Positions 10,077 through 10,197 of a stretch of DNA of 35,268 nt are shown here, one piece after another. The stretch is from Candidatus Methylomirabilota bacterium (lineage in GTDB: Bacteria > Methylomirabilota > Methylomirabilia > Rokubacteriales > CSP1-6): positions 1 to 35,268 of the forward strand of contig DASYTI010000143.1 in assembly GCA_036002485.1 (NCBI GenBank). The letters run 5' to 3'. The stretch's first letter is position 1, and each line of letters starts with the position of its first letter. The notes beneath the pieces were generated by a model. That model made no database searches. It had not been told where the DNA came from and was given only the letters and a program-made list of their open reading frames with translations. The position numbers and the translations under genes are program-made.

Positions 10077-10157
10077 TCACCGCGACCTCGTGGCGTGACA
10101 AAAAAACAGCCCAGCGCTTGGCTGGGCCGCTCTCAACATGGTCTTCGGCTGCTTCAT
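10077..10157 (-). CDS. Possible 26-residue leader peptide in the pyr attenuator
   Basis: An ATG at 10157 follows AAGGAG (10163-10168) at a five-base spacing, an ideal ribosome site. The frame runs 26 codons through the terminator hairpin and stops inside the region before the chosen pyrR start. The ribosome site is the 3' arm of the proposed PyrR-binding hairpin, so PyrR binding would hide it. Translation through the terminator would in turn prevent the hairpin forming. The peptide begins [19 protein letters not shown] and shows no obvious regulatory codon run. Expression is inferred from the ribosome site only. Confidence 0.45.
10100..10127 (-). terminator. Intrinsic terminator of the pyr leader
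   Basis: On the minus strand a 7-bp GC-rich stem (GCCCAGC, loop CAAGC, GCTGGGC) is followed by TG and seven T residues that end almost at the TTG at 10101. It lies between the PyrR-type hairpin and pyrR, exactly where a PyrR-controlled terminator belongs. Confidence 0.9.
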
Positions 10158-10162
10158 GCCTG

Positions 10163-10197
10163 CTCCTTGCGGGCCTCTCAGGGTCCGCTTAAAGGAG
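10163..10197 (-). promoter_or_regulatory. PyrR-binding (anti-antiterminator) hairpin
   Basis: The minus-strand RNA can fold with CUCCUU (10197-10192) pairing to AAGGAG (10168-10163) and an inner GCGG/CCGC stem. Its apical part reads CCUGAGAGGCCCGCAAGG (10182-10165), close to the conserved PyrR-binding loop (AGAGAGGCUnGCAAG type). It precedes the terminator by about 35 bases. UMP-bound PyrR would stabilise this hairpin and so let the terminator form; with low UMP an antiterminator would allow read-through. The match is by eye from the known consensus. Confidence 0.85.

Follow-up and report, generated by a model that had tools for sequence, protein, structure and literature searches.

In the pyr cluster of Thermus strain ZO5, Van de Casteele and colleagues reportedly described in 1997 a PyrR-controlled leader that carries a terminator, is free of an antiterminator, and is kept from terminating by a translating ribosome; regulation by uracil is said to have been measured there. 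To our knowledge, this model was proposed from sequence, and the role of the ribosome itself is unproven. For Mycobacterium smegmatis, Fields and Switzer are said to have reported in 2007 that the PyrR hairpin hides the Shine-Dalgarno sequence (SD) of pyrR itself, in a leader from which the terminator is absent, the outcome being translational repression. In Escherichia coli pyrBI, the leader SD is not known to be accompanied by a PyrR hairpin, and coupling between ribosome and polymerase, not access to the SD, exerts control; attenuation of this type needs a U-rich pause tract ahead of the terminator, within the leader. A ribosome translating the pyrBI leader ORF (pyrL) across the terminator sustains transcription (PMC5021804), and pyr attenuation in Bacillus subtilis uses an RNA antiterminator (PMC7430163).

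We analyzed a stretch of 35,268 nucleotides from a Candidatus Methylomirabilota bacterium (assembly GCA_036002485.1, contig DASYTI010000143.1), hereafter the window. From the sequence, its pyr leader is probably a transcription attenuator of the Thermus type, controlled by PyrR and mediated by a ribosome, ahead of pyrR-pyrB-pyrC-carA-carB-pyrF-pyrE-hpt.

The pyr operon and its leader in the window

All features of the operon lie on the minus strand. The first gene, pyrR (9529..10080, GTG start), matches NF003549 with 243.5 bits against a cut-off of 138. It is followed by pyrB (8599-9525), pyrC (7328-8602), carA (6210-7445, the start probably lying further downstream), carB (2712-5927), pyrF (2006-2728), pyrE (1395-2009) and hpt (868-1395, start unsure), the last encoding a hypoxanthine phosphoribosyltransferase. 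Gene order suggests that pyrR to hpt (868-10080) would form one transcript; since hpt ends the pyr cluster after pyrE, pyrimidine control may extend to a purine salvage enzyme. On the plus strand, a divergent gene (10356-13715, 1119 aa), whose 5' end faces the pyr promoter, encodes a relative of TOMM system kinase/cyclase fusions (344 bits against a cut-off of 705.75).

A sigma-70-like promoter (10217..10246), composed of TTGACA (10246-10241), 18 nt and TAGAGT (10222-10217), was found once, versus a mean of 0.0 in shuffled sequences, and a transcript from it should begin about a dozen bases 5' of a PyrR-type hairpin (10163..10197). Similar TTGACN/TANNNT-like pairs lie 5' of the hairpin in 38 of the 45 Methylomirabilota loci with a terminator and leader ORF (leader type) and in all 34 that lack both (direct type). 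The hairpin, assigned from its fold, from RF00515 and from covariation, has the lower stem CUCCUU/AAGGAG, a UAA bulge, an upper stem with an A.C mismatch, and the loop CUGAGA. A preliminary description of this DNA had placed an SD in the 3' arm of the hairpin, ahead of a 26-codon frame crossing the terminator, and direct reading and folding agreed with it to the nucleotide. The arm AAGGAG (10168-10163) is also the SD of a leader ORF, with a spacer of 5 nt to the ATG (10157-10155) and a predicted duplex with the anti-SD of -7.7 kcal/mol. This frame (10077..10157) runs for 26 codons to TGA (10079-10077), and the intrinsic terminator (10100..10134; stem 10134-10102 as folded, T-run 10106-10100) lies entirely within it. 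A feature absent from that description is the overlap at the end of the frame, where the leader stop and the GTG start of pyrR share the four nucleotides GTGA (10080-10077). In the predicted fold, the hairpin and the terminator are both formed (z = -2.86), and none of 200 shuffled sequences was equally stable.

A scan of the window against Rfam at the gathering score listed no element, because the alignment of RF00515 (PyrR) to 10199-10098 scores 41.1 bits (E = 2.6e-4), below the gathering score of 54. The structural hallmarks of the family are present, namely the UAA-bulged hairpin, the CCNGNGAGG top and the paired lower stem, and the hairpin stands in the leader of pyrR and the pyr genes, as a PyrR binding element should. 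The cut-off rather than the element looks to be at fault: the gathering score was reached by 1 of the 18 non-Bacillota loci tried, so that leaders of this type and their short ORFs may well stay unannotated. Across 61 aligned sequences from the phylum, 95.2% of hairpin cells are paired (85.3% when shuffled), and changes on both sides of the stem number 97 (37.6 when shuffled). A model built from these 61 rows (R1), the window's own hairpin being one of them, matches 10198-10162 with E = 7.1e-12. It has matches in 79 of 94 phylum genomes; G038 and G089 each have two strong sites, and the other 77 have one.

The operon might instead sense UTP in the manner of pyrBI, with polymerase pausing setting the distance between ribosome and polymerase and with PyrR acting only as an enzyme. 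A leader ORF that spans a terminator is also the layout at E. coli pyrBI (PMC5021804), but pyrR comes directly after the leader, the hairpin covaries and is the single model site in the window's genome, and a U-rich pause tract before the terminator is, by eye, absent from the window leader. We consider UTP sensing of this kind very improbable.

Proposed mechanism and leader conservation

The attenuator that we favor builds on features visible in the DNA itself (the leader anatomy, the hairpin covariation, the conserved start and frame, the stop/start overlap and, for the window, a predicted fold that lacks an antiterminator), and we infer PyrR binding, UMP sensing, leader translation, ribosome interference and restarting to combine as follows. 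When UMP is plentiful, UMP-bound PyrR would keep the hairpin closed and the SD of the leader ORF hidden; ribosome start would be blocked, because the 3' arm of the hairpin is that SD. With no ribosome on the leader, the terminator inside the ORF would fold by default and transcription would end. When UMP is scarce, PyrR would depart, and a ribosome would initiate on the leader ORF in the wake of RNA polymerase and, as it moved across the terminator, would prevent the stem from forming. The antiterminating element would be the ribosome and not an RNA antiterminator. The ribosome would end at GTGA and could restart on pyrR, so that translation of pyrR may draw on that of the leader as well.

The main weak point of this scheme concerns the SD, which even without PyrR should, by prediction, be largely paired: its mean probability of being unpaired is 0.03 in the window, and the medians are 0.17 for the phylum, 0.38 for Deinococcota and 0.28 for Omnitrophota. 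The window hairpin is worth -15.1 kcal/mol, of which opening the lower stem would cost about 6.1. Ribosome entry must rely on breathing, co-transcriptional timing or an unseen factor, given this predicted pairing.

To compare leaders, we searched the phylum with the window PyrR, which found matches at E <= 0.001 in 90 of 95 genomes, weak matches to other phosphoribosyltransferases counted in; incomplete matches in G037, G074 and G081 were left out. Among 82 leaders, two were too short and 80 had the hairpin: 45 with hairpin and terminator (the window included), 34 without terminator and leader ORF, and one odd locus, L090. L090 comes from G018, where another PyrR-like gene fragment, a divergent one, lies at the end of a contig; the locus has the hairpin without a T-run. 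We also read 70 of 93 PyrR genomes from Deinococcota and 70 of 127 from Omnitrophota. The regular expression for the hairpin skips 7 of the 70 Deinococcota and 25 of the 70 Omnitrophota loci, several of which have a variant hairpin by eye, and these are excluded from the counts. Among the skipped Deinococcota loci, L213, L232 and L297 show, by eye, two tandem PyrR-like GAGAGGC/GAGACC elements 5' of the SD. Also outside the hairpin-plus-terminator counts are 11 direct-type loci and 4 without a T-run in Deinococcota, and one without a T-run and one short locus in Omnitrophota. The window's own locus is among those counted, as are near-identical rows (L081/L082 and L272/L273), so that loci do not equal independent events.

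A start codon (ATG, GTG or TTG) stands 3-10 nt past the SD in all 45 hairpin-plus-terminator leaders of Methylomirabilota, where 13.3 are expected from shuffles. At the same distance past the hairpin, starts occur in 48 of 48 such leaders in Deinococcota (10.5 expected) and 42 of 43 in Omnitrophota (12.3 expected), the sole leader scored as startless, L332, carrying an ATG 2 nt beyond the end of the motif. With the best-performing start codon in this range taken for each leader, the longest frame ends in or beyond the stem of the terminator in all 45 Methylomirabilota, all 48 Deinococcota and 40 of the 43 Omnitrophota leaders, with one more Omnitrophota frame ending within 12 nt of it. In one leader, L020, the first ATG directly precedes a stop, and the frame is carried by a GTG 2 nt later. 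The T-run is passed by 38 of the 45 Methylomirabilota frames, the other seven stopping within the terminator stem-loop; in the 43 Omnitrophota leaders, 32 frames pass it, eight end within the stem-loop and one within 12 nt. Shifted frames served as a control. Of the 38 Methylomirabilota leaders, 5 still have a frame open beyond the T-run when read one base later, and 20 when read two bases later; in the 32 Omnitrophota leaders, the other two frames are open in 1 and 7. All 48 Deinococcota frames pass the T-run, but the frame two bases later is likewise open in 32 of 48, so that in this phylum the open frame alone is scarcely informative and the argument depends on the start codon; this control is weak in GC-rich leaders. 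Loss of the ORF or its ATG in relatives that keep hairpin and terminator, which had been named beforehand as evidence against a functional leader ORF, was looked for among the 45 phylum leaders and not found. The proposed coupling of attenuation with translation gains support from these starts and frame ends, both present in 45 of 45.

A pattern scan across phyla (84,980 species by description) required AAGGAG in the hairpin and, 38-68 nt further on, a T-run, and did not demand a start codon; it gave at least 120 stretches, of which 120 were analyzed. Among the matches listed, non-Bacillota leaders have a start at 3-10 nt in 50 of 58 cases (17.1 expected) and a frame that passes the T-run in 44 of 58 (8.6 expected). 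The eight startless non-Bacillota leaders among these matches are both of those from FCPU426, two of three from Actinomycetota, the single ones from Spirochaetota, Fibrobacterota and Nitrospirota, and one unassigned record. The negative control is provided by Bacillota, since among the matches listed their counts sit at expectation (starts in 23 of 62, 23.5 expected; frames passing the T-run in 11 of 62, 9.8 expected).

The alternative drawn from Bacillus holds that PyrR stabilizes an anti-antiterminator, that otherwise an RNA antiterminator pairs the 5' arm of the terminator, and that the leader ORF is accidental. We predicted, for nascent RNA ending before the terminator's 3' arm, the probability of pairing between the 5' arm and the PyrR hairpin. 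In the 37 of 62 Bacillota loci used here, the mean is 0.69 and 33 of 37 leaders exceed 0.3, whereas no competing antiterminator is predicted in the window (0.08) and the means are 0.16 in Methylomirabilota, 0.25 in Deinococcota and 0.11 in Omnitrophota. The window's hairpin is of the RF00515 kind, as the Bacillus scheme would have it, and pairing exceeds 0.3 in 10 of 45 Methylomirabilota leaders (0.47 in L069, for example), 16 of 48 in Deinococcota and 6 of 42 in Omnitrophota, so that an RNA antiterminator may be at work as well in some of these leaders. Start codons in 45 of 45 leaders and ten in-phase length changes (see below) are, however, unexpected from an accidental ORF, and leader starts in Bacillota themselves are at chance level. 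These comparisons make a Bacillus-type switch very unlikely for the window, and the contrast with the Bacillus scheme drawn in the preliminary description is borne out, by the starts at chance level and by the prediction that the terminator arm is mostly paired with the hairpin in Bacillota.

Overlap with pyrR and direct-type loci

The frame of a ribosome-mediated leader may also matter to pyrR. With the start codons chosen as above, 36 of 45 Methylomirabilota, 46 of 48 Deinococcota and 22 of 43 Omnitrophota leaders have a stop that shares 1-35 nt of overlap with an in-frame pyrR start (null expectations 9.5, 15.7 and 6.1), leaving 9, 2 and 21 without overlap. The overlap is exactly 4 nt in 25 of 45, 19 of 48 and 11 of 43 (5.8, 6.6 and 2.3 expected); the Deinococcota frame two bases later overlaps by 4 nt in 9 of 48. 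All 19 leader-type loci of the window's order, taken without selection on overlap, have the 4-nt form. In the PyrR tree, which contains 18 of these, the leaders come in nine lengths (21-54 codons) and require at least ten length changes, with phase kept in each; ten such changes would have a chance of about one in 3^10 if phase were free. Deeper families of the phylum show overlaps of 4, 11 or 16 nt, or end before pyrR, mostly within the terminator, so that phase is not kept phylum-wide. Long leaders can retain the 4-nt overlap, at 54 codons in L011 and L013 and at 59-74 codons in L262, L263, L318 and L350.

The frame is conserved and the peptide is not. Between the window (L009) and L012, the leaders differ at 7, 9 and 8 sites in codon positions 1, 2 and 3, versus 9, 3 and 52 in the first 180 codons of pyrR. 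Stalling on a specific sensor peptide was dropped as a candidate for this reason. Selection seems to act on a ribosome that travels the leader path and ends at pyrR, and a translational relay from leader into pyrR may exist. The window's pyrR need not depend on restarting, since a fair SD precedes it (-6.6 kcal/mol predicted, versus -7.7 for the leader), as is often the case for pyrR elsewhere; the leader SD is the stronger in only 26 of 44 phylum loci. The 21 Omnitrophota leaders without overlap likewise speak against a dependence on restarting.

Taken further, such a relay could be the whole of the regulation, with PyrR blocking translation of the leader and hence of pyrR, and with the stem-loop carrying no regulatory weight. 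The 4-nt overlap in 25 of 45 leaders, even at 54 codons, fits this explanation, as do the direct clade, which manages without a terminator, and a Deinococcota locus, L216, which by eye keeps the hairpin, leader ORF, TTGA overlap and stem without a proper T-run and looks to stand half-way between the leader and direct types. Against it, the ORF never occurs without a T-run among the 80 phylum hairpin loci, except in the divergent L090; the frames that stop early end inside the terminator in seven of seven cases and before it in none, as a ribosome block would need; and the window's pyrR has its own SD. We regard a relay without attenuation as very unlikely, and prefer an attenuator in which the ribosome acts on the terminator and may also be passed on to pyrR.

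The 34 loci without terminator and leader ORF form one clade (support 99) among the leader-type loci of the phylum, which corresponds to one change on the tree. The midpoint root of this tree is for drawing only; a direction from leader to direct type is indicated because all 26 typed loci of deeper families are leader type. By its position, the SD in the hairpin of these 34 loci is that of pyrR itself; this arrangement, free of a terminator, is found in this sister clade and not in the window. The partial likeness to mycobacterial control that had been suggested for the window is apt in this respect, since a form whose hairpin SD serves pyrR exists so close by. The tree of Deinococcota, with 11 direct loci, gives five changes for the direct type, one of them forced by the starred branches, and the number of conversions there is not firm. 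One Methylomirabilota genome, G089, has a leader-type and a direct-type pyrR (L016 and L047) on two contigs; its contamination is 6 percent, so it is perhaps a mixed bin.

Comparison with described pyr leaders

Like the Thermus type, the window has a PyrR hairpin that contains the SD of the leader ORF, a leader ORF across an intrinsic terminator and, by prediction, no competing antiterminator (pairing 0.08). Deinococcota leaders read here, including the Meiothermus records L094 and L135, are likewise Thermus-like in having hairpin, leader ORF and terminator; near the pyr leader of the latter, from Meiothermus taiwanensis, lies a match to the c-di-GMP-II-GAG riboswitch (L135:1476-1562, minus strand; 51.6 bits, gathering 40). 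The window leader ends with a 4-nt overlap, whereas the overlap with the nearest start in Deinococcota is 4 nt in 15 of 48 leaders and 11 nt in 10 of 48, and the leader peptides there are, by eye, unlike that of the window. As reportedly in M. smegmatis, an SD is hidden in the PyrR hairpin, but the window's SD is that of the leader ORF and is accompanied by a terminator. The hairpin is of the same sequence and structure class as that of B. subtilis and the terminator likewise stands ahead of pyrR (PMC7430163); the window differs in having no predicted antiterminator and in having a leader ORF, which in Bacillota occurs at chance level only.

More broadly, we would suggest, tentatively and as a view slightly more apt to fail than to hold, that the usual PyrR switch outside Bacillota is borne by the ribosome in two tiers, access to the SD setting both termination and, via the overlapping stop and start, the supply of ribosomes to pyrR. 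In at least two phyla it would apparently have become plain translational repression once the sequence separating the two start codons was lost, the leader start thereby becoming that of pyrR. The textbook example, Bacillus, would be a special branch in which an RNA antiterminator has replaced the ribosome, or the reverse. These loci give comparative weight to the Thermus-derived ribosome model and offer natural matched sets (leader type, direct type and an apparent intermediate) for the turnover between attenuation and translational repression.

A literature search, with most subscription-journal papers outside its coverage, surfaced no earlier printed report. The scheme is not a new kind, because it was reportedly proposed for Thermus in 1997. 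The window appears to be a further case of that kind, and the new part would be its reach and the possible relay into pyrR.
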